NCBI RefSeq assembly: GCF_002787055.1
Contig: NZ_CP024808.1
Coordinates: forward strand, 1,452,328 to 1,516,327
From: Candidatus Nitrosotenuis aquarius
Lineage (GTDB): Archaea > Thermoproteota > Nitrososphaeria > Nitrososphaerales > Nitrosopumilaceae
DNA length: 64,000 nt
Direction: 5' to 3'
The notes under the pieces: model-generated
What the model was told of the DNA's origin: nothing
Databases searched by the model: none
The model's input: only the letters and a program-made list of their open reading frames with translations
Translations under genes and position numbers: made by a program
Shown: piece by piece, positions 24,714-33,773 of the stretch
How positions within the stretch are numbered: the first letter of the stretch is position 1
Layout of the letters: every line of letters starts with the position of its first letter

Positions 24714-24806
24714 TCAGGCTTTGTCAAAACCAAATGAAAGTGAATTGAAGGCTTCATTTGGAATTGAGCACATACTAGGATCCCTAACATCTTGGTTTGT
24801 GTCCAT
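24714..24806 (-). CDS. Possible small protein (30 aa) behind motif promoter
   Basis: 30 aa from ATG to TGA. Its first residues MDTN and the DNA around them match the 34-aa Cys-rich protein at 32605, and the promoter has the AAGGC..CCGCA element 16 nt before CTAATAA, with the ATG 26 nt after the box start. Only one Cys (13). Possibly a degenerate member of the island's small-protein family. Confidence 0.45.
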   Translation of the reverse strand: MDTNQDVRDPSMCSIPNEAFNSLSFGFDKA

Positions 24807-24824: not shown

Positions 24825-24860
24825 TTATTAGTGCATAATTGTGGATTTGCGGCGTGCCTT
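24825..24860 (-). promoter_or_regulatory. Island promoter, site 1
   Basis: AAGGCACGCCGCA (24860-24848), 16 nt, CTAATAA (24831-24825). Directs minus-strand transcription of 24714-24806. Variant base C at position 7 and C at position 6-8 region; the GCCGCA end is intact. Confidence 0.6.
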
Positions 24861-24862
24861 TT

Positions 24863-25057
24863 CTATAAGGCATATTCTATTTTACGAGGCATGATCACTT
24901 GAACACATTCTAGATCGTAAAAACAATCTACATGAAATTGTTCTAGTGTTCTATGTCCACACGCAATACAGATCCTTTGCGTTCCGCATCTGCATTTGGC
25001 ACACAAAGAGCAAGTCATTTGCACATTACCACATTTTCTGCAATGTTCGTCTGGCAT
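24863..25057 (-). CDS. Small zinc-ribbon protein (64 aa)
   Basis: 64 aa from ATG. Four ligand pairs: C-R-K-C, C-S-L-C (with an extra C-R-C), C-I-A-C and H-V-D-C. The order C-x2-C, C-x2-C, C-x2-C, H-x2-C is the same as in the island proteins at 27258 and 30829, so they form one family of probable double zinc ribbons. Driven by site 2 with a ~30-nt box-to-ATG distance. Cytosolic; binding partner unknown. Confidence 0.75.
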   Translation of the reverse strand: MPDEHCRKCGNVQMTCSLCAKCRCGTQRICIACGHRTLEQFHVDCFYDLECVQVIMPRKIEYAL

Positions 25058-25080: not shown

Positions 25081-25116
25081 GTATAAAGAAGTAGATGCAG
25101 AAATGCGGCATGCCTA
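25081..25116 (-). promoter_or_regulatory. Island promoter, site 2
   Basis: Minus strand: TAGGCATGCCGCA (25116-25104), 16 nt, TTTATAC (25087-25081). Serves the zinc-ribbon gene starting at 25057. Back-to-back with site 3, 21 bp apart. Confidence 0.65.
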
Positions 25117-25137: not shown

Positions 25138-25173
25138 AAGGCATACCGCATACGGATGTATATTCACTAATAT
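25138..25173 (+). promoter_or_regulatory. Island promoter, site 3
   Basis: AAGGCATACCGCA (25138-25150), 16 nt, CTAATAT (25167-25173). An ATG 27 nt after the box start opens the 15-aa leader frame at 25194. The element continues as TACGG, giving partial dyad symmetry. Confidence 0.7.
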
Positions 25174-25193: not shown

Positions 25194-25241
25194 ATGCAAG
25201 TAAATCACTCTCTCACATCTGAGAAGAATGAGAAGTCATAG
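25194..25241 (+). CDS. Leader peptide (15 aa) ahead of secreted protein
   Basis: ATG at the leaderless distance from the site 3 box, 15 codons (MQVNHSLTSEKNEKS), then TAG. The TAG overlaps the strong Shine-Dalgarno GGAGGTGAT of the next gene, so ribosomes finishing the leader would be positioned for re-initiation. Polar, no Cys. Possibly a regulatory upstream frame. Confidence 0.5.
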   Translation: MQVNHSLTSEKNEKS

Positions 25242-25252: not shown

Positions 25253-25534
25253 GTGAAGTCATTAAAAATTTCTGCAATCGTAGCAATTCTCGCTGTCTCA
25301 TTAGTATCTTCATCAATATCTGTTGCTGAAGCAAAAAAGGCATCAACAGATGACAAACTATCACCAAAAAGCTATGGTCTAAAAACATCATCTAATCCAG
25401 TAATAAAGTCTGCAGACAAATCAGATACAACAACAAAGTTCAAGAATTTGAAGACAGAAGAAATCAGATCAATACAGAAAATCATGGAAGAACAAAAAGC
25501 ATCCATGTATATCAAAAAAACATACAGAATGTAA
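25253..25534 (+). CDS. Small secreted Lys-rich protein
   Basis: 93 aa from GTG. Signal peptide ~1-27 (LKISAIVAILAVSLVSSSIS then V-A-E-A). The mature part is Lys/Ser/Thr-rich and helical (LKTEEIRSIQKIMEEQKASM). No cysteines and no family recognised. It is the second cistron behind site 3, translated from a strong SD after the 15-aa leader. Similar in size and character to the 56-aa secreted protein at 31603. T-rich tracts follow the stop. Confidence 0.7.
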   Translation: MKSLKISAIVAILAVSLVSSSISVAEAKKASTDDKLSPKSYGLKTSSNPVIKSADKSDTTTKFKNLKTEEIRSIQKIMEEQKASMYIKKTYRM

Positions 25535-25640: not shown

Positions 25641-25676
25641 AAGGCATACCGCAATACGGTATACAGGCTCATATTA
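25641..25676 (+). promoter_or_regulatory. Island promoter, site 4
   Basis: AAGGCATACCGCA (25641-25653), 16 nt, CATATTA (25670-25676). The ATG at 25697 is 27 nt after the box start. The element extends into a perfect dyad ATACCG-CAATA-CGGTAT. Confidence 0.7.
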
Positions 25677-25696: not shown

Positions 25697-25915
25697 ATGT
25701 CAACAATTCAAGTCTACAAACAACAATCTGTACCAGAAAAAATTCTGATTGCAGGATTGCCGTCAAAAAAAGAAACAAATCTTGCAACAAATGGAATCAA
25801 ATGCATGATTTGTTCTGACTCTAAGGTACCGTGCATTTTTGACGAGAGCAGAAAACCACTTGTGCTAAAATGCAGAGTGTGGCCACAAGTCGTGGCCAAC
25901 ACGTCATCTTGTTGA
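25697..25915 (+). CDS. Hypothetical Cys-containing protein (72 aa)
   Basis: 72 aa, leaderless ATG behind site 4. Cysteines cluster as C-M-I-C ... C-I-F and K-C-R, then a terminal Cys, a loose C-x2-C zinc-like pattern. Not obviously of the C/C/C/H ribbon family but small, soluble and under the same promoter type. No partner gene follows on this strand. Function unknown. Confidence 0.6.
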   Translation: MSTIQVYKQQSVPEKILIAGLPSKKETNLATNGIKCMICSDSKVPCIFDESRKPLVLKCRVWPQVVANTSSC

Positions 25916-25971: not shown

Positions 25972-27219
25972 TTAATTTTTATATGCATTGTAGATGTTTT
26001 GGTACAGGCTTGACTTTGCTCTGACTATATCTTCCCTTAATGAAATGACCTCGTTGGTTACTTTGTGGATCTTTTTGGGATCTGGATTGACAGTATTTGT
26101 CAAGTCAGCAAGCTCGCCTCTTTTTGTAGCCAGTTTTGCCTCCATGTCTTTTATCAATCCTTGAAGTCTGGCTATCTCAAATGTCACATCCGAAAACTTG
26201 AGAGATATACTAGAAGAGGAATTTGCTTCTACTTTTGTTCCTGTCTTGTAACAAGAATTTGATGCTATTTTTGTAAGCTTCAAAGTCGTATCGACCGTGT
26301 CTGTTGTGACCTTGATTATGGGATCAGAAATCGATTCCCTTCCTGCACATACTTCCAGTACTACATCCCAAACTCCCTTTGTCTTAGATGGTAGGGCAGA
26401 TATTATCTTGACATGATTTCCGGATATCTCCGAGCCGGTAAACGATGTCTTTGGTAGATCTGTTTTCGATTTTTGTCCATACAATACTAGGTTGTATCTG
26501 GCTATGTCGTCCCTAAGATCGTTAATTGCTTGTCGCAATGAGGTGATCTTGGTAGTGGATTCTCCTATCTTTGCCTTTTTCTCATCAGTGTTTTGTTCAA
26601 GCAGTATTGAGGCCAAGGTCTCTTTTTCTGCTTCAAGTTGCTGATTGAGACTGGTGATCTTGTCGTTTATTGATGCTATTTTTGACACAATATCGTCCTG
26701 GTTTGTTAGGCTTGCCGTTATTGAACTTGAATTAATCGCAGTTACTGTAGCAGACGACATTCTGCACGAGTTAGCCGGAATGTCTTGTGACAGCGTGATT
26801 GTCTTTGTATCGAGGTCGGTTTTGATTAGGATTTCTGGGGCAACAAGTGTTACTGATCCAGCACATACTTCAAAGATATAGTTGTATATGGATGTGGAAC
26901 TCTTCTTTACTCCAATAGACTCAGCCTTTGTAATTGAAATTGTCTTGATTATATCTTTAATTTCTGTCACACTTGGCTCAGAATCCGGTAGTCTTTCCCA
27001 TCCGCCTCTTGCAAATATATCCACTGATGATTCTTTGACACAAATGACTCTGGTCTTTTCAGAATCAACAAGCTTCACAAGATCTTCATTACATACTACT
27101 TCATTTGGCGGTATGCCCATGTGGACTTGTACTAGGGGGTGTATTGCGTCACCACGTGCTTCCTCTAGTAAAAGCGTACCAAAAGCCGCCGATAAAATAA
27201 CTACAAGCAAAAGTTTCAT
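25972..27219 (-). CDS. Secreted protein with two two-Cys domains and coiled coils
   Basis: 415 aa from the ATG at 27219 (longer start has no signal character). Signal peptide ~1-24 (MKLLLVVILSAAFGTLLLEE.. region). Two repeats of a ~85-residue strand-rich domain with paired cysteines (FEVCAGSVTLVAPEI to NSCRMSSATV, and LEVCAGRESISDPI to NSCYKTGTKV), each followed by a coiled coil (SLNQQLEAEKETLASI; LIKDMEAKLATKRGEL). The domain recurs once each in the proteins at 31101 and 32030. Second gene behind site 5, after the zinc-ribbon gene. Confidence 0.72.
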   Translation of the reverse strand: MKLLLVVILSAAFGTLLLEEARGDAIHPLVQVHMGIPPNEVVCNEDLVKLVDSEKTRVICVKESSVDIFARGGWERLPDSEPSVTEIKDIIKTISITKAESIGVKKSSTSIYNYIFEVCAGSVTLVAPEILIKTDLDTKTITLSQDIPANSCRMSSATVTAINSSSITASLTNQDDIVSKIASINDKITSLNQQLEAEKETLASILLEQNTDEKKAKIGESTTKITSLRQAINDLRDDIARYNLVLYGQKSKTDLPKTSFTGSEISGNHVKIISALPSKTKGVWDVVLEVCAGRESISDPIIKVTTDTVDTTLKLTKIASNSCYKTGTKVEANSSSSISLKFSDVTFEIARLQGLIKDMEAKLATKRGELADLTNTVNPDPKKIHKVTNEVISLREDIVRAKSSLYQNIYNAYKN

Positions 27220-27257
27220 GGGTAGAGTTACTCTTTCTTTGTATTTATTTTTGATCC

Positions 27258-27494
27258 TCAAATTGTGGTGAGTATATCTAGCTGACAATAACAAAACTCG
27301 TGCAAATCCGCGTATTCTTTTTTATCACAGGTGGTACATTTTAAGAAAATTGCTAATTTGCATTCTGTACAAAAATTGATCTCTTCTAGTATTCCACTGC
27401 ATGATTTGCATTTTTGTAATTTTGCTTTGCTTTCATTTAATGTATCTTGAGCAGATCTCTTGTTGACTGTTTGTAGTATGTAGTAACTTTTCAT
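27258..27494 (-). CDS. Small zinc-ribbon protein (78 aa)
   Basis: 78 aa from ATG 27494, which lies 27 nt after the start of the site 5 box (a TTG at 27509 is too close to it). Ligands: C-K-S-C, 9 residues, C-T-E-C, 7 residues, C-T-T-C, 8 residues, H-E-F-C. The protein at 30829 has the same spacing (9/7/7), so they are paralogues. First gene of a two-gene unit with the secreted protein at 25972 (39-nt gap). Confidence 0.75.
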   Translation of the reverse strand: MKSYYILQTVNKRSAQDTLNESKAKLQKCKSCSGILEEINFCTECKLAIFLKCTTCDKKEYADLHEFCYCQLDILTTI

Positions 27495-27514
27495 AGTGTT
27501 CGTACACAATGATA

Positions 27515-27550
27515 TTATTAGTCAATTAATGATGGTTTGCGGCATGCCTT
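27515..27550 (-). promoter_or_regulatory. Island promoter, site 5
   Basis: AAGGCATGCCGCA (27550-27538), 16 nt, CTAATAA (27521-27515). Identical to site 7 over 36 nt except one base, spacer included, so one was copied from the other. Confidence 0.7.
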
Positions 27551-27591
27551 TTTTGTAAAATATTGTACCTAAAGTAAATTCTTAGAAAGTA

Positions 27592-27625
27592 TTATTAGTA
27601 GAATCTGCCTTTTTGCGGTATGCTT
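27592..27625 (-). promoter_or_regulatory. Island element, site 6, over the start of 27620
   Basis: Minus strand AAGCATACCGCA (27625-27614, one G missing), 15 nt, CTAATAA (27598-27592). No leaderless gene follows on the minus strand. On the plus strand the ATG of the 27620 gene lies inside the element, with a TATTATTAG box ~30 nt before it. Looks like a repressor position. Confidence 0.55.
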
Positions 27626-28465
27626 GATGAGCCCATAGTTTATGGAAATTTGCAATCTTACAAGCTATATGTTCTGCCTATGGCAAAACGTCTTTTTGGA
27701 AATTATTCCTTTAGAAGAAAATCCGCAATAAAACATCATTCTAATGTTCAGAAAATGTTGGAAATTCTGGCTTTGCATGGATCCCTCACAACATGGGGCA
27801 TGGCAAAAATAGCATTAAACGATGATATCACAAATATTAGAACTAAAGAAAAAGAATATCGCCGCTTGTTAAAAGGGAGAAAAGATCGCGGAAAACATTC
27901 TCCAGGAGTTTTAGATGTTGGTCTTGTGGTGACCGATGGCAAGAACTATAACCGCGGCCCGGCCGATGTCTATAGGCTCTCCGTCCATGGTATTCTATAC
28001 TGCCTTGATGTTTTGGAGCTTACAAATAAGGAAATTGACAAAATGGCGCACCATTACTCTAATGTTCTACCAATGATGTTTGGAAAATGGGAGTATCTCA
28101 AATCAATTGTGTCAAATGATGTATACAGATTAAAAACCCTGGCAGGTGGCATGTTTTTAGATAATATTCAGGTAACAAAGCTCTCAAAATTCCCAGTTTT
28201 TGAGCTTTTAACGTATCTGTCAATAAAATACCAGGAATTCTTTGAGTCAATAGAAGAAAAAAAACTTGCAGACCAGCTTTCTTATTGGTTTTACACGCAT
28301 CTGTTTTTGCCCTCAGGATCAAAACAAGCGGGATTGGACAATACAAAACTCAAAAAAATCTTTGAAGACAAACAAATCAAAGACTGGTATTATGGATTTG
28401 TGGAAGAATCCATCCAGTTCTACCAAGACAGATTTACTGTAATGAAAAAGCTAGCAAAACATTAG
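27620..28465 (+). CDS. Winged-helix-like protein, candidate island regulator
   Basis: 281 aa. The ATG lies within the island element; ATG 27680 is an alternative. Residues ~45-130 read as a winged helix (VQKMLEILALHGSLTTWGMA as first helices, then NIRTKEKEYRRLLKGR as a basic recognition helix, wing VDVGLVVTDGKNYNRGP-like). Residues ~130-281 are helical and unrecognised. Converges with the receiver gene at 28462. The DNA-binding role is inferred from pattern and position. Confidence 0.6.
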   Translation: MLDEPIVYGNLQSYKLYVLPMAKRLFGNYSFRRKSAIKHHSNVQKMLEILALHGSLTTWGMAKIALNDDITNIRTKEKEYRRLLKGRKDRGKHSPGVLDVGLVVTDGKNYNRGPADVYRLSVHGILYCLDVLELTNKEIDKMAHHYSNVLPMMFGKWEYLKSIVSNDVYRLKTLAGGMFLDNIQVTKLSKFPVFELLTYLSIKYQEFFESIEEKKLADQLSYWFYTHLFLPSGSKQAGLDNTKLKKIFEDKQIKDWYYGFVEESIQFYQDRFTVMKKLAKH

Positions 28466-28827
28466 GCGTGCTTGTTGATTAGGCCTTCTAGTATCTCAAA
28501 TGAATATGGCTTTGATATTGCCTCAATTAGGCCTAGGCTCTTTGCCTTGAGGTATTTCTTTTCGTCCTGATTGTATGCCGTAATTAGAATCACTTTGGCA
28601 CTCGAGTCGTGTTGCCTTATCTTAAGAAATGCATCATAGCCATCCATTTTTGGCATTCTTATGTCCATAAATGTCAAGTCTGGCCTTATGTCCTTGTATT
28701 TAGTCACTCCATCATCTCCGTCCTTTGCAGTAAATACATTGTGACCCATGCCCTTGATCATAAAGGCGGTGTTTTCTAGCAGATCTACATCATCGTCTAC
28801 AATTAGAATTGTCTTTTGGCCGGACAC
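28462..28827 (-). CDS. Stand-alone response regulator receiver (CheY-like)
   Basis: 121 aa, a single receiver domain: acidic pocket D-D-D near residue 11-13, phosphoacceptor D55 in FMDIRMPKMDGYD, T in LITAYN, and K in ISKPYS. There is no output domain, so it must act through a partner. It starts 36 nt after the stop of the histidine kinase at 28864 and is its likely cognate. Overlaps the convergent gene at 27620 by 4 nt. Confidence 0.92.
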   Translation of the reverse strand: MSGQKTILIVDDDVDLLENTAFMIKGMGHNVFTAKDGDDGVTKYKDIRPDLTFMDIRMPKMDGYDAFLKIRQHDSSAKVILITAYNQDEKKYLKAKSLGLIEAISKPYSFEILEGLINKHA

Positions 28828-28863
28828 TACATTACTTGGTTTTTCTTCTCATAAAAAACTTGC

Positions 28864-30720
28864 TTACGAGTTTTTCATTTCTTGTGTAATTGGTATAGTT
28901 ATGGTAAAGATAGTTGGGTCATTCTGAAATGAAATGGAGCCATTGTGTTGCTCTACGATATTTTTGCAGCTGGCAAGGCCAAGACCAGTTCCTTTTTGTT
29001 TTGTCGTAACTAGTGGTTTGAAAACATCTGGAATTATTTTTTCCTCAATTCCAGGGCCATTATCCTCAATCTCAATTATGGCATTGTTGTTGTTTTGTTT
29101 GATTTTAATTGTAATTTTGCCCTTGTCTTGATCTGTTGCCTGAATAGAATTTAAAATCAAGTTGATAAATAATATTTCCATTTTTTTCTCATCGCAGTCT
29201 ATTGTGATGTCTTGTCCCTCTATGGAAATCTGCACTTCTTTTGGAACCTCTAGCGATTGTATTGCTGATTTAATAATTGATCTTATGGACGCAGGCTTGA
29301 TCAAAAGTGGTGTTTTTCTCAAGTAATTTAGAACGTCTTCCACCTGATGCGACATGCGAGAAACTGCCCTATCCATTCTTTGTATGACTGTGTCTATTTC
29401 TGGATTGGATCCGACGTTTCTCTTTATGATGTCCATTCCAGTGCGGATTGTGCCAAGAGGGTTTTTCATGTCGTGAGCCATGCTTGCAGAAAGCTCTCCT
29501 ATTGCAGTCAGTCTTTCGTTTTTTATGCGTGCATTTGCTTCGGACAGCTTTTTCTCTGTTTCAAATAATTTCTTTAAGGAAACTTCCATTTCTCTAAAAG
29601 AATTCATTATGGTGTTTATCTCTGTAATTTTGCTTTTCTGTATCTTTGCATCAAAATCTCCCCTTCCAAGAAGCACTGTGATCTTTGAAAGCCTAGCAAG
29701 AGGATTTGTAACAAAACGGGACAGAACTATTCCAAGAGCCGTGGCAGATATTATTCCGAGTAACGTTGAGATCAAAAAGTTCCTCTCAAGCGTCTCAAAT
29801 CCTTCTACTACTGAGGAGTCTTGCTCTATTACAACAACCCAGTCAAATCCTCTAAAGTCTCTATATCCTATTGATGTTGCATAAGACACAAAGATGATAT
29901 CTGGATAACCGATCTCAAAACTATCATTATCTGTTGTGAATCTGGAAAAATATTCTATTTTTGAATTAGACGGGAATATTTGCCCGTTTTTGTATATGGC
30001 CTGACCATCATTGTCGACAAGTATGACGTTTTTTCTTGCTTCGTTTAGCACATCAGCATCATTTAGGAAGTCTTCCAATAAGACATGATAACTAACTGTA
30101 ATTCTCAGCGTTCCGATATAGTTTGAAGATTCATCCAGAATGGGAAATGCAAATGGGACTACATAATCATCATAATTCTTGTCGTATTCCATCTTGCCCA
30201 CAAAACTCTGTTTGTTTTTTGTAATTTGCCACCATTCCTCATCTGCTTGTATGTAATCTGTCGTGCCTGTCGTAAGGGCAATAACTGCCCCATATTGGTT
30301 TGTCACAAACAGTTCTTTTACAACATTTAGGTTGTATTCGTTCGTGTCTGATAAGACAAACTCATTGAGTCTAGCAGAAATTTTGTTCTCAAATATGCTC
30401 TTCATTAATTTGGTTCTATCATGTTGTGTAATATCTAGAGGAGATTCTAACTCTACAAGATCTGATTCATCAAATTTCTGGTTAGATTCTATAACTGATG
30501 ACTGAATTTGTTTTATTTCTGTTAGACTTTGCAGCTCTAGTATTTTTGAATAAATGTGCCCATCGAGGTCTTGCATGATGTTGTTTGCCTGTGCCTGGCT
30601 CCTCAACAATGTTGTCTTTTTTGCTTCATCAATTGCAAATTCATAAGTAAAATAACTATGTCCTGCATATACCGAAAACAAAACTGTGATTGCCAGTATC
30701 AGCAAGTATGTGATTTTCAC
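28864..30720 (-). CDS. Membrane sensor histidine kinase
   Basis: 618 aa. Membrane span ~4-22; extracytoplasmic Cache-like sensor ~23-310 (DEEWWQITKNKQSFVGKMEY); second span ~315-335; HAMP ~336-390; HisKA with phosphoacceptor His in SASMAHDMKNPLGTIRTGMD (~417); HATPase with N box NLILNSIQATD, G1 IEDNGPGIEE, G2 GTGLGLASC. ATG start. Followed by the receiver gene. It lies in the centre of the motif island but its own promoter has no element in the correct orientation. Confidence 0.94.
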   Translation of the reverse strand: MKITYLLILAITVLFSVYAGHSYFTYEFAIDEAKKTTLLRSQAQANNIMQDLDGHIYSKILELQSLTEIKQIQSSVIESNQKFDESDLVELESPLDITQHDRTKLMKSIFENKISARLNEFVLSDTNEYNLNVVKELFVTNQYGAVIALTTGTTDYIQADEEWWQITKNKQSFVGKMEYDKNYDDYVVPFAFPILDESSNYIGTLRITVSYHVLLEDFLNDADVLNEARKNVILVDNDGQAIYKNGQIFPSNSKIEYFSRFTTDNDSFEIGYPDIIFVSYATSIGYRDFRGFDWVVVIEQDSSVVEGFETLERNFLISTLLGIISATALGIVLSRFVTNPLARLSKITVLLGRGDFDAKIQKSKITEINTIMNSFREMEVSLKKLFETEKKLSEANARIKNERLTAIGELSASMAHDMKNPLGTIRTGMDIIKRNVGSNPEIDTVIQRMDRAVSRMSHQVEDVLNYLRKTPLLIKPASIRSIIKSAIQSLEVPKEVQISIEGQDITIDCDEKKMEILFINLILNSIQATDQDKGKITIKIKQNNNNAIIEIEDNGPGIEEKIIPDVFKPLVTTKQKGTGLGLASCKNIVEQHNGSISFQNDPTIFTITIPITQEMKNS

Positions 30721-30772
30721 TAGTAAGTGGATGCTCTTTTTGCATTTAAACTCTGGTTTTCATACAAACAAA

Positions 30773-30808
30773 AAGGCATACCGCAAACCATCATTAATTG
30801 ACTAATAA
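30773..30808 (+). promoter_or_regulatory. Island promoter, site 7
   Basis: AAGGCATACCGCA (30773-30785), 16 nt, CTAATAA (30802-30808); ATG at 30829, 27 nt after the box start. Almost identical to site 5 including the spacer. Confidence 0.72.
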
Positions 30809-30828
30809 CAAAACCACTAAACAAATCC

Positions 30829-31101
30829 ATGAAAACAAACATTCAGATTAACAGTGATCCATCAATTCCTGATCATGTAAGAGAAAAACTGTTCAGCTAT
30901 GAGAGCCTCATGAAAAAATTGTTTTATGCGTGCGAAAAGTGCGATGGCGCCCTGATACAGCTGGCCACATGTGTTGTTTGCAAGAGAACATCGATGAGAA
31001 TATGCGTCAATTGTGCAACTGTTTCAAAAACCCCCCACGAATCCTGCAATATTGTAAGAATTGCTAACCATTCCTCGACAATCCTGGAGGCAGGTCGCTA
31101 G
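30829..31101 (+). CDS. Small zinc-ribbon protein (90 aa)
   Basis: 90 aa, leaderless ATG. Ligands C-E-K-C, 9 residues, C-V-V-C, 7 residues, C-V-N-C, 7 residues, H-E-S-C, in the order seen at 27258. N-terminal ~30 residues are polar. The stop TAG overlaps the next start (GTG), with GGAGG 12 nt before it, so translation of the secreted partner is coupled. Confidence 0.75.
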   Translation: MKTNIQINSDPSIPDHVREKLFSYESLMKKLFYACEKCDGALIQLATCVVCKRTSMRICVNCATVSKTPHESCNIVRIANHSSTILEAGR

Positions 31102-31547
31102 TGCTGAAAATACTCGGAATTGCTCTATTGGCAATGTCTGTGATGATCGCAGGTACTGTAGTCCCTTCTGGCGCGGCAATTAACTATGACAAACAGGAGA
31201 ATTTCAAGTATGTCAAAGAAAAAATCGTAAAACCATACCCAGGTAAAAGCGGCTGGTGGATTTATCATGTGTGGGTCTGCGCCGATGATTATAGTCTGGG
31301 AATTGCCGAAGTTGTTCTAAGCTCGGATACTGAGAAAATTTACCAAGGCGTAAACAAGGCCATTCCAAAAGGAGAATGCAGTACATATGGCGCAGTCATG
31401 AAGGCAAAGAATGGCAATACTTTGGGATACAAAATAACAACAATCGCAGACGCAGCAGAAAAAATAGCCAAGTCAAAGCAGGGAAAACTTGACAATACCA
31501 ACTGGAATGAGATTGGCAGATACAAGTTTGTTCTTGGCTTCTACTAA
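31101..31547 (+). CDS. Secreted two-Cys-domain protein
   Basis: 148 aa from GTG. Signal peptide ~1-26 (LGIALLAMSVMIAGTVVPSG). The mature domain WIYHVWVCADDYSLGIAEVV to GECSTYGAVMKAKNGNTLGY matches the repeated domain of the 25972 protein and the one at 32030: V-x-x-C-A start, a basic/acidic strand, G-x-C-x-x-Y, then an I-x-I strand. Pairs with the zinc-ribbon gene upstream. Its stop lies inside site 8. Confidence 0.7.
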   Translation: MLKILGIALLAMSVMIAGTVVPSGAAINYDKQENFKYVKEKIVKPYPGKSGWWIYHVWVCADDYSLGIAEVVLSSDTEKIYQGVNKAIPKGECSTYGAVMKAKNGNTLGYKITTIADAAEKIAKSKQGKLDNTNWNEIGRYKFVLGFY

Positions 31548-31581
31548 GGCATACCGCAAATCTACAATTATGATCATATAA
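31546..31581 (+). promoter_or_regulatory. Island promoter, site 8
   Basis: AAGGCATACCGCA (31546-31558), 16 nt, CATATAA (31575-31581); ATG at 31603, 28 nt later. Differs from site 10 at only two positions over 39 nt. Confidence 0.7.
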
Positions 31582-31602
31582 CATCTGAACAAAAGATACT
31601 CA

Positions 31603-31773
31603 ATGAAAACATTCTCCAAGACTTTACTTCTTGCCACAATAGCGGTAATGTTGTTTGCATCAGTATATGCAAGTGTTGCGTTAGAGGAGGCAGATGCGGC
31701 AAAGTCCAAAAAAGACAAGCTCAAGTCCGTCAAAGCCAAGAAAGGTTGGCTAGCTCATTCAAAATATCGGTAG
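31603..31773 (+). CDS. Small secreted Lys-rich protein (56 aa)
   Basis: 56 aa, ATG to TAG. Signal peptide ~1-23 (KTLLLATIAVMLFASVYASV) and a very basic mature part (KSKKDKLKSVKAKKGW). Resembles the 93-aa secreted protein at 25253 in its A-E/D-A-K-K junction. Sole gene behind site 8. A mature peptide of ~30 residues could act outside the cell; function unknown. Confidence 0.62.
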   Translation: MKTFSKTLLLATIAVMLFASVYASVALEEADAAKSKKDKLKSVKAKKGWLAHSKYR

Positions 31774-31796
31774 AACAATCCAAAACCAATTATTTT

Positions 31797-31883
31797 TTAT
31801 TCAGAATAATTCATGGCACATTCAAGTGAGCAAAATTCTGATCTCCTATTTTCGAATTCTTTGCTACATTTTTTGCACTTCAA
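31797..31883 (-). CDS. Tiny zinc-finger protein (28 aa, possibly 41 aa)
   Basis: 28 aa from the TTG at 31883, which has GAGGG 7 nt upstream; an in-frame TTG at 31922 would give 41 aa. Ligands C3-x2-C6 and C18-x3-C22 with F10 and L20 as hydrophobic core: a minimal zinc finger of MYM/FCS type (E-F-C-S-L-E-C). It is in the transcript that would start from site 9. Confidence 0.5.
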   Translation of the reverse strand: MKCKKCSKEFENRRSEFCSLECAMNYSE

Positions 31884-31902
31884 ATTTTTTCCCTCATTGC
31901 GT

Positions 31903-31940
31903 GCAGAGGCAGCTAGGCACAACGCCTAGCCACCATCTGA
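31903..31940. repeat. Inverted repeat in leader of site 9 transcript
   Basis: CTAGGC and GCCTAG flank ACAAC (about 31913-31929), a perfect 6-bp hairpin between the predicted transcript start and the tiny zinc-finger gene. It may control access to the downstream start. Confidence 0.35.
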
Positions 31941-31995
31941 AATGACCTGTCTTACACGAGATTGGTACTGGCACGACTCATCTCTGAGAAATTAA

Positions 31996-32030
31996 TTATT
32001 AGATATTGTTTTGCAAGTGCGGTATGCCTT
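31996..32030 (-). promoter_or_regulatory. Island promoter, site 9
   Basis: AAGGCATACCGCA (32030-32018), 15 nt, CTAATAA (32002-31996). The first ATG gives only a 9-codon frame; the tiny zinc-finger gene is further down. Confidence 0.55.
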
Positions 32031-32599
32031 TAGATTTTTCTGTATTTGATATTTGTAAATTCGGTCAAGTCAGAAACATACTGGATCTTGATCTGAGCTG
32101 TGTCTTTGGAGTTGATCTGTGTGTGGTAACTTTGGCATTTTCCTGCCTGCATCGACTTGCCTGACTCGGCTATGAACCATTCAAGCTTGGATTCTATGAG
32201 AAAAGATGGCCTTTGGATTGATTTTTCTGAGCACGCCTGGAACTTGACTAGGTATTTTTCCTTGCCTAGTAGCGTGGTGGAGGTTACCTTGATGTCAATT
32301 TTGGCATTGTTGTTCTTAAAGCCAGACTGTATCTTTTCAAAGTTCTTGTCAATTTTGCTTTTGCCCACAAAATACCAATCTGGATTTTTGTACAGCTTTA
32401 TGCAGTCATGAAGATCCGATTTGTATTTGTATTTCTCGCGAAACTTTTGCTCGCCAAGCTCCTTGTATTTTTCATACATTGAAATGCACTTGTTCTGATT
32501 CACTCTTCCCTCTACAGTGCTTACTGGCAAAACAAGCACTGATGAGAGAATGCCTATTGCAAAGAGAAGACCGATATTTGTTATGTATTGGCGTCGCAT
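32030..32599 (-). CDS. Secreted two-Cys-domain protein
   Basis: 189 aa from the ATG at 32599. Signal anchor/peptide ~5-27 (NIGLLFAIGILSSVLVLPVS). After a helical Lys/Tyr-rich part, the domain LVKFQACSEKSIQRPSFLIE to GKCQSYHTQINSKDTAQIKI matches those in 25972 and 31101 proteins. Starts 5 nt after the Cys-rich gene at 32605, so the small-protein/secreted-protein pair occurs a third time. Confidence 0.7.
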   Translation of the reverse strand: MRRQYITNIGLLFAIGILSSVLVLPVSTVEGRVNQNKCISMYEKYKELGEQKFREKYKYKSDLHDCIKLYKNPDWYFVGKSKIDKNFEKIQSGFKNNNAKIDIKVTSTTLLGKEKYLVKFQACSEKSIQRPSFLIESKLEWFIAESGKSMQAGKCQSYHTQINSKDTAQIKIQYVSDLTEFTNIKYRKI

Positions 32600-32604
32600 T
32601 GTGG

Positions 32605-32709
32605 TTACCCTTTGATATATGGACACAAATCTACGGCCTGCAAGGGAGAATTGTCGCAGATAAGATTCGGACACGCTCTTTTACAACAATCATCGTAGTT
32701 TGTGTCCAT
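32605..32709 (-). CDS. Tiny Cys-rich protein (34 aa)
   Basis: 34 aa, ATG to TAA, cysteines 8, 9, 13, 18 and 29. Leaderless: ATG 29 nt after the site 10 box start. Begins MDTN like the 30-aa product at 24714. It occupies the position held by zinc-ribbon genes in the other two-gene units. Confidence 0.58.
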   Translation of the reverse strand: MDTNYDDCCKRACPNLICDNSPLQAVDLCPYIKG

Positions 32710-32731
32710 ATTGCGATTCTACCTAAACATG

Positions 32732-32767
32732 TTATATGATCATGATTATAGATTTGCGGTATGCCTT
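32732..32767 (-). promoter_or_regulatory. Island promoter, site 10
   Basis: AAGGCATACCGCA (32767-32755), 16 nt, CATATAA (32738-32732). Right-most copy of the element; none was seen outside 24.8-32.8 kb. Confidence 0.7.
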
Positions 32768-32858: not shown

Positions 32859-33773
32859 ATGAAAATCAGTTTCACATTTGTAATAGCTGCATTGTCCTTA
32901 CTCTCAATCCCAGCTCTGGCTGCAGACGCACAAACTGTGGATGAACAAAAATCATACCGAGTCGGAATCTACCTCCTAAATGTCGGAAAAATCGATCTGC
33001 ATACAAGCTCCTACGACCTTGATTTTTACATGTGGGTGTATTCCGAAGAGGATGACTTTACAAAGTCAAAACCCAAGATAGAATTCATGAATGGCAAAGC
33101 AACCATAGAGCCTATTACGGTAGAGCCGCATTATTATGAAGCAAGGGTCAAAGGCACGTTTCTAAACAACTTGGATTTTCACCAATATCCATTTGAGCAA
33201 ATTCATCTAACTGTGGAAATAGAAGGGCTAGATGAGCATCAAAGTCTTGTCTTGATGGCAGATCCTGACGAGAGTGGCATTGATAAGCTGATCAGCATTC
33301 CGGGTTGGAATCTAGTTGAGATGACCCAAGACATCCTAATTCATGATTATCCTGATGGCAAGGAATATTCTAGATATGTATTTACGATGACAATTGAGAG
33401 ATTTTTCCTCTCGTCTTTTCTTAAAACACTCCTTCCAATTATCATAATCACAACAATTGCAATGCTTGCTTTCTGGATGAGCCCAGCTAATTTTGCTCCA
33501 AGAATAGGCCTTGGCGCATCAACCCTTTTGGCTGCAGTAGCGGCACATCTTAATGCCGCAAACCAGCTTCCTCCAGTAGGCTATCTCACACTGCTTGACA
33601 AAATCATGATAATTGCATATGCATTGTTTTTGAACAACTTGCTTTCCATGGTTATACAAATGAGGTATGTAGATCATGACATGAAGGACAAGGCAGTACA
33701 AATCAATGCAAGGATGCGCAAGTTCATGCCAATAATTGTAATTGTGATTTTCTTCTCATTGTTGATAATCTAG
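32859..33773 (+). CDS. Pentameric ligand-gated ion channel (Cys-loop receptor superfamily) homologue
   Basis: 304 aa. Signal peptide ~1-21; strand-rich extracellular domain ~22-190 (VGIYLLNVGKIDLHTSSYDL; Cys-less loop LDFHQYPFEQIHLTVEIE with the conserved Y-P-F); M1 ~190-212 with the conserved Pro (LLPIIIITTIAMLAFWM); M2 ~218-240 (GLGASTLLAAVAAHLN); M3 ~250-272; M4 at the C-terminus. Length and order match prokaryotic channels of GLIC/ELIC type. Ligand and ion unknown. Heads an apparent operon with the transporters at 33813 and 35226. Confidence 0.85.
   Translation: MKISFTFVIAALSLLSIPALAADAQTVDEQKSYRVGIYLLNVGKIDLHTSSYDLDFYMWVYSEEDDFTKSKPKIEFMNGKATIEPITVEPHYYEARVKGTFLNNLDFHQYPFEQIHLTVEIEGLDEHQSLVLMADPDESGIDKLISIPGWNLVEMTQDILIHDYPDGKEYSRYVFTMTIERFFLSSFLKTLLPIIIITTIAMLAFWMSPANFAPRIGLGASTLLAAVAAHLNAANQLPPVGYLTLLDKIMIIAYALFLNNLLSMVIQMRYVDHDMKDKAVQINARMRKFMPIIVIVIFFSLLII

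Follow-up and report, generated by a model that had tools for sequence, protein, structure and literature searches.

The stretch of the Candidatus Nitrosotenuis aquarius genome analyzed here (the window, 64,000 nucleotides (nt), shown in pieces over positions 25972-32709) contains a cluster of about 8 kb whose genes carry a common promoter box, AAGGCATRCCGCA. The box stands upstream of each unit, and was found within near-identical short stretches that emerged when the segment was searched against its own genome. The units encode zinc ribbons, other micro-proteins and secreted proteins. Between the promoters at 27538 and 30773 sits a cassette of three genes, which encode G_281 (a candidate DNA-binding regulator), a response regulator consisting of a receiver domain only, and a histidine kinase (Table 1). 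An earlier note on this DNA described repeated two-gene units of a tiny cysteine-rich protein and a secreted protein, and did not list the box, the strongest signal of the region. We are nearly certain that these genes form a conserved promoter regulon linked to a regulator. The earlier note thus framed the finding too small, and saw the products of this promoter set.

When up to two mismatches to the 13-mer are allowed, the whole window holds 12 box matches where 2.6 are expected, a number reached by none of 100 shuffles, and 10 of the 12 fall in the 8 kb of the cluster. Promoters of the form box-N42-47-ATG number 11 in this genome: seven in the cluster and four in a second locus, L119 (960.8-962.8 kb; L numbers designate loci of this genome and its relatives, G numbers genomes). 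Three products of the cluster, a ribbon, the MSTIQ protein and the secreted protein of 93 aa, have paralogues in L119. Outside these two loci the genome has no such promoter, and the reversed control gave 0.

The promoter geometry was counted over 55 loci from this genome and its relatives, with reversed sequence as the control. The core box occurs 92 times, versus once in the control. The distance from the box to the ATG that opens the frame is 43 nt in 40 cases, 44 nt in 14 and 45-46 nt in six, and every other distance occurs at most four times. At least 90% of these sites have a TATA-like A-T-A 20-22 nt behind the box. This element lies about 22-24 nt before the ATG, and thus the transcripts of the micro-genes are probably leaderless, judging from the spacing. 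The box itself is placed upstream of TATA at target promoters, about 44-56 nt ahead of the ATG; this is the side of TATA on which archaeal activators bind. Among 61 promoters in 18 loci, 30 are followed by a non-secreted short frame and then directly by a secreted one, often with an overlap of 1-4 nt and a GGAGGTGA ribosome site, and seven open with a secreted protein.

The kinase of the cassette is recognized by its HisKA (41.1 bits, cut-off 26.9) and HATPase_c (83.5 bits, cut-off 26.4) domains, and its dCache_1 match (E 5e-7, 30.0 bits) falls under the curated cut-off of 45. The receiver protein (121 aa) scores 85.6 bits against Response_reg (cut-off 30.2), and the DDD, MDIRMP and SKP motifs can be read in its sequence. 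No DNA-binding domain is fused to it, which favors a separate DNA-binding partner. In 47 of 54 loci the gene directly following G_281, and convergent with it, is the receiver gene; in 45 the kinase gene comes next, and the linkage of kinase and receiver extends across species. Among 250 Nitrosopumilaceae genomes (22 genera), 65 genomes from 12 genera encode G_281, in up to four copies per genome; the wider order yielded a single partial, weak match outside the family. Conserved residues stand right behind its ATG, which supports this codon as the true start (our G_281 alignment, A1, comprises 41 sequences). Comparison of G_281 with Pfam, NCBIfam, PHROGs and PDB sequences gave matches at chance level only.

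Several observations connect G_281 with the box. Promoter hits number 149 in 44 of the 65 genomes with G_281, versus 16 in 15 of the 185 genomes without it (Fisher p=2e-20; the reversed control gave nine hits). Most G_281 genes themselves have a box that overlaps their ATG, with a TATA-like run some 25 nt upstream. Furthermore, when the box at G_281 is compared in subtype with the boxes up to 10 kb away, 58 of 70 cases agree, a level reached by 0 of 10000 permutations. Some genomes hold two versions of G_281 together with two box subtypes, and each subtype stays close to the version it belongs to: G022 (L199 with CCA, L251 with CCG), G025 (L244, L253) and G092 (L235, L189). Among the compared cases, L269 in G182 departs from the match. 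At residue 89 of G_281, which follows a conserved RRLLxGR stretch, all 30 proteins whose boxes are CCG have Asp, and the 16 proteins of the CCA clade have Ala or Ser. Contact of Asp89 with cytosine, and of Ala with the methyl group of thymine, would be chemically sensible.

These observations also bear on the possibility that the box is a promoter element for a special transcription factor B (TFB) or another general factor, with G_281 merely another gene under its control. Thaumarchaea carry several TFBs, and both the fixed spacing between box and TATA and the lack of a detectable DNA-binding family in G_281 would fit such an element. However, about 17 nt separate the end of the box from the TATA-like element, which a TFB recognition element would adjoin; within a single genome the box subtype goes with the G_281 paralogue, and box promoters track the presence of G_281. 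We therefore consider a general-factor element improbable.

We instead read the region as a regulon with its own regulator, in which the path would lead from kinase to receiver to G_281 to the box and on to the genes for micro-proteins and secreted proteins; from sequence evidence, we put the probability of this reading at roughly two in three. For its parts, G_281 is likely to bind the box, and the kinase and receiver probably control the circuit, for which our confidence is slightly lower. In the proposed sequence of events, the membrane-bound kinase, with a putative dCache sensor outside the cell, would phosphorylate the receiver-only regulator, which would in turn control G_281, and G_281 as a DNA-binding protein would recognize the box. 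Transcripts would then begin with, or close to, the ATG of a micro-gene that encodes a zinc ribbon or short peptide, and in many units the next gene encodes a secreted protein with the Cys-Cys domain. At G_281 itself, transcription in either direction could use the TATA-like run. Because the box covers the presumed start there, the geometry suggests that binding would shut off G_281 and switch on the divergent unit. As the output, an outside signal would change the set of secreted or surface proteins, and the micro-proteins may act as cytosolic feedback or assembly partners. This suggests a signaling circuit that rebuilds the cell surface in ammonia-oxidizing archaea.

The same geometry could be read in another way, with G_281 as a repressor, or as a protein working without kinase and receiver, the two-component genes being mere neighbors. 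Like a repressor site, the box lies across the start of G_281, and some distant homologues of G_281 (seven of the 54 loci) lack a receiver gene behind them. On the other hand, receiver and kinase stay with G_281 in the 45 loci mentioned above, and a protein bound to the box of a target promoter, upstream of TATA, leaves TATA free. On balance we regard a repressor or an independent G_281 as unlikely, although it is the strongest competitor of the proposed regulon.

A number of points weigh against the proposed regulon. Neither G_281 nor 40 homologues match a known helix-turn-helix family, and the single-sequence structure prediction of G_281 (pLDDT 34) is unusable as a model; its order of elements, helix-helix-helix-strand-strand-helix, comes from this low-confidence model and is at most suggestive of a winged-helix fold. 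The exact promoter pattern is absent from 21 of the 65 genomes with G_281, partly because distant clades have other boxes, and 24 of the 61 box promoters fit neither the scheme of a micro-gene followed by a secreted protein nor the secreted-first scheme. In the window, the box at the start of G_281 is itself degenerate, with two mismatches. The permutation test of subtypes disregards relatedness, and the CCA subtype is a single clade (support 100/98); thus the subtype agreement partly reflects shared descent, and the switch at residue 89 is a single event. Other G_281 residues follow the CCA clade equally well, and covariation analysis could not single out position 89, the CCA subtype being one clade.

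The proposal can be extended, though we consider this less likely than not, to a new kind of archaeal output, in which a receiver-only regulator would act through a separate, unclassified family of DNA-binding proteins. Its box would double as its own start site, so that synthesis of the regulator would give way to the divergent surface-protein unit; residue 89 (Asp or Ala/Ser) would help determine the box that is read, paralogues would run side by side in one cell, and leaderless micro-proteins would be feedback partners. In a survey of two-component systems across archaea, receiver-only proteins made up about 75% of the response regulators of thaumarchaea, most of these stood in no conserved neighborhood and could not be assigned functions, and it was concluded that archaeal signaling works mainly via protein contacts and not by direct control of transcription (PMC5847659). 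The dCache kinases of marine ammonia oxidizers have been proposed, from sequence alone, as receptors of AI-2 (PMC11442133). FilI/FilR1/FilR2 of Methanosaeta harundinacea (PMC5847659) resembles the cassette in combining a sensor kinase with a receiver-only regulator, with gene expression as the likely output, whereas the cassette described here also has a third, unclassified protein, together with a DNA box that is defined and a set of genes mapped to it. Thaumarchaeal pairs of a receiver gene and an ArsR-family gene (arCOG03067), such as Nmar_0452-Nmar_0453 and others (PMC5847659), likewise place a receiver-only gene next to a predicted DNA-binding gene. By their description, those pairs are set apart in being divergent and ArsR-like, whereas the genes for G_281 and its receiver converge, and no Pfam or NCBIfam model matches G_281. 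We found no description of the box or of G_281 in the openly accessible literature (subscription papers lay outside the scope).

Most response regulators of ammonia-oxidizing archaea are bare receivers without a known output. The cluster offers a complete candidate path, with sensor, receiver, candidate DNA-binding protein, DNA site, promoter geometry and target genes, and the natural paralogues of G_281 with different box subtypes are candidates for reading different sites. Small purified proteins and short DNA suffice for testing each step, with no need for genetics in organisms that are hard to grow.

Table 1. Genes and promoter boxes of the cluster, in window coordinates.
Feature	Position	Strand	Details
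30-aa MDTN micro-ORF	24714..24806	-	MDTNQDVRDPSMCSIPNEAFNSLSFGFDKA
Promoter box	24848..24860	-	AAGGCACGCCGCA; 41 nt before ATG of 30-aa MDTN micro-ORF
Zinc ribbon A_zr64	24863..25057	-	64 aa; orthologues in L182-L185
Promoter box	25104..25116	-	TAGGCATGCCGCA; 46 nt before ATG of ribbon 24863-25057
Promoter box	25138..25150	+	43 nt before 15-aa leader micro-ORF
15-aa leader micro-ORF	25194..25241	+	MQVNHSLTSEKNEKS
Secreted protein	25253..25534	+	93 aa; ribosome site GGAGGTGA in front; paralogue in L119
Promoter box	25641..25653	+	43 nt before MSTIQ gene
MSTIQ micro-protein	25697..25915	+	
Secreted protein (25972 protein)	25972..27219	-	WING-49 domain (residues 28-75), two Cys-Cys domain copies, coiled coils
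Zinc ribbon E_zr1	27258..27494	-	78 aa
Promoter box	27538..27550	-	box of E_zr1
Degenerate box	27614..27626	-	2 mismatches; over G_281 start codon
G_281	27620..28465	+	candidate DNA-binding regulator; no Pfam, NCBIfam or PDB relative
Response regulator	28462..28827	-	receiver domain only; PF00072, E 3e-24
Histidine kinase	28864..30720	-	dCache, HAMP (both below cut-off), HisKA, HATPase_c
Promoter box	30773..30785	+	box of J_zr2; 43 nt before ATG
Zinc ribbon J_zr2	30829..31101	+	90 aa
Secreted protein K	31101..31547	+	148 aa; Cys-Cys domain; overlaps J_zr2
Promoter box	31546..31558	+	44 nt before ATG of 31603
Small signal-peptide protein	31603..31773	+	56 aa
Cys-rich micro-protein	31797..31883	-	28 aa; CX2C...CX3C; TTG start inferred
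Promoter box	32018..32030	-	exact match; TATA-like element present
Secreted protein N	32030..32599	-	189 aa; C-terminal Cys-Cys domain
34-aa MDTN micro-ORF	32605..32709	-	5 Cys; not a zinc ribbon
Promoter box	32755..32767	-	45 nt before ATG of 32605-32709

Three gene pairs had been described as paralogous copies of one module, and all three are present: E_zr1 with the 25972 protein (38 nt between the genes), J_zr2 with K (stop and start overlapping by 1 nt) and the 34-aa micro-ORF with N (5 nt between the genes). The domain said to be common to the secreted proteins, and to occur twice in the 25972 protein, is also borne out. Profiles built from relatives link K, the C-terminal domain of N and both domains of the 25972 protein, the latter two with each other at a probability of 99.7 and the remaining pairs at 83-98, versus less than 0.3 for unrelated control profiles. 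Profile comparison likewise makes E_zr1, J_zr2 and the fourth ribbon, A_zr64, which had been missed, homologous (probability 94-97). The tiny partners are nevertheless not of one kind, since the 34-aa product is no ribbon; in relatives its position is occupied by other short peptides starting with MDTN or MNTN. Nor are all pairs conserved. J_zr2 and K, with overlapping genes, form the sole conserved pair (11 of 19 homologues of the ribbon), whereas the other two pairs swap partners; for example, ribbon 27258 is paired with other secreted proteins in L119, L182 and L183.

A duplicated two-gene sensing or display module in three copies is therefore highly improbable: although the secreted domain is shared, the ribbons are homologous and one pair is conserved, one tiny partner is unrelated, partners are exchanged, several other micro-genes are driven by the same promoters, and the real unit is larger. 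In its strict form this explanation is refuted, and its duplicated domains stand. The suggestion of sensing or surface display diversified by duplication fits the paralogous domains and ribbons and the sensor kinase in the middle of the region, but it misses the larger promoter-box regulon.

Some promoters of this genome are nearly identical to one another. The 39-nt promoters at 27515-27553 and 30770-30808 are 97% identical, inverted and 3216 nt apart, and those at 31546-31584 and 32729-32767 are 95% identical and inverted, with different genes behind them. L191 has an exact inverted promoter pair. Promoters thus seem to have been copied or homogenized within genomes. Such inverted pairs could also be the arms of an invertible or mobile switch that flips the kinase cassette, as the 97% complementary arms around it and the exact pair in L191 would allow. 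We set this explanation aside as extremely improbable, because the likeness is confined to the promoter, the corresponding promoters of L182 and L183 are just 60% alike, and function accounts for both box and spacing. In the relative G204, seven almost identical 59-nt box promoters lie on four contigs (C9, C24, C29 and C86), as if the promoter itself had been multiplied.

Further variants of box and regulator occur in relatives. L265 and L266 have another box subtype, AGGCA..CCATA, with a long stretch in common behind it; several promoters of this subtype, nearly identical to one another, stand next to divergent G_281 homologues. In L260, L261 and L263, distant G_281 homologues are divergent from genes for proteins of 49-50 aa that resemble ribbon-helix-helix regulators (MSSRITIMLDKDLEKKLRIKQSK...).

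The ribbons contain CXXC pairs with a further Cys/His pair, and most members have the spacing CX2C-X9-CX2C-X7-CX2C-X10-12-C. The ribbon of the second locus is homologous to those of the window, has the same cysteine spacing and matches DZR (PF12773) weakly (E 0.006). Double zinc ribbon proteins of this Pfam family resemble the ribbons in having CXXC pairs within a 50-residue stretch. In contrast to them, the ribbons described here score at best 17.1 bits, below the curated cut-off of 27.3, have a fixed spacing of seven cysteines, and are linked to secreted proteins and box promoters. The unit divergent from G_281 often encodes either a ribbon or a peptide of 50-56 aa with (D/E)DLMGLSWxLFEE at its end. 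The N-terminal pattern QPEPxKxLVxxxPVKxGxK, perhaps a docking stretch, is common to peptides of this kind and some of the ribbons. The MSTIQ proteins were considered as ribbon relatives, but profile comparison gave no support despite a weak BLAST link. The C-terminal end of the window's MSTIQ protein seems out of frame with respect to its L119 paralogue (CRVWPQ... versus CIKCGHKSW). The 28-aa Cys-rich micro-protein, an open reading frame that most gene finders would overlook, is kept beside the cluster in four relatives (L182, L183, L185 and L188).

The Cys-Cys domain has two invariant cysteines (C60 and C93 in K). A structure predicted from the four window copies (pLDDT 68, core 76-86) is a six-stranded beta fold of moderate confidence, for which an immunoglobulin-like sandwich is plausible, though no function follows from it; the model had no PDB match at E 0.001. 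The signal peptides together with this domain suggest that the secreted proteins are located on the cell surface. Only the 25972 protein matches WING-49 (NCBIfam NF058652; 49.9 bits, cut-off 22), and the likeness to WING-49 domain proteins is confined to its residues 28-75: NF058652 covers neither the two Cys-Cys domains nor the coiled coils.

The surroundings of the box loci encode proteins of other kinds. By eye, the box locus at L119:8340-11015 adjoins genes for a dienelactone-hydrolase-like secreted protein and UreD/UreG-like urease accessory proteins. In the window, the neighborhood encodes an aldehyde dehydrogenase, and the gene adjoining the cluster at 32859-33773 encodes a neurotransmitter-gated ion channel membrane domain (28.5 bits, cut-off 28.1) of a prokaryotic-type ligand-gated channel, with an orthologue beside the cluster in L185.

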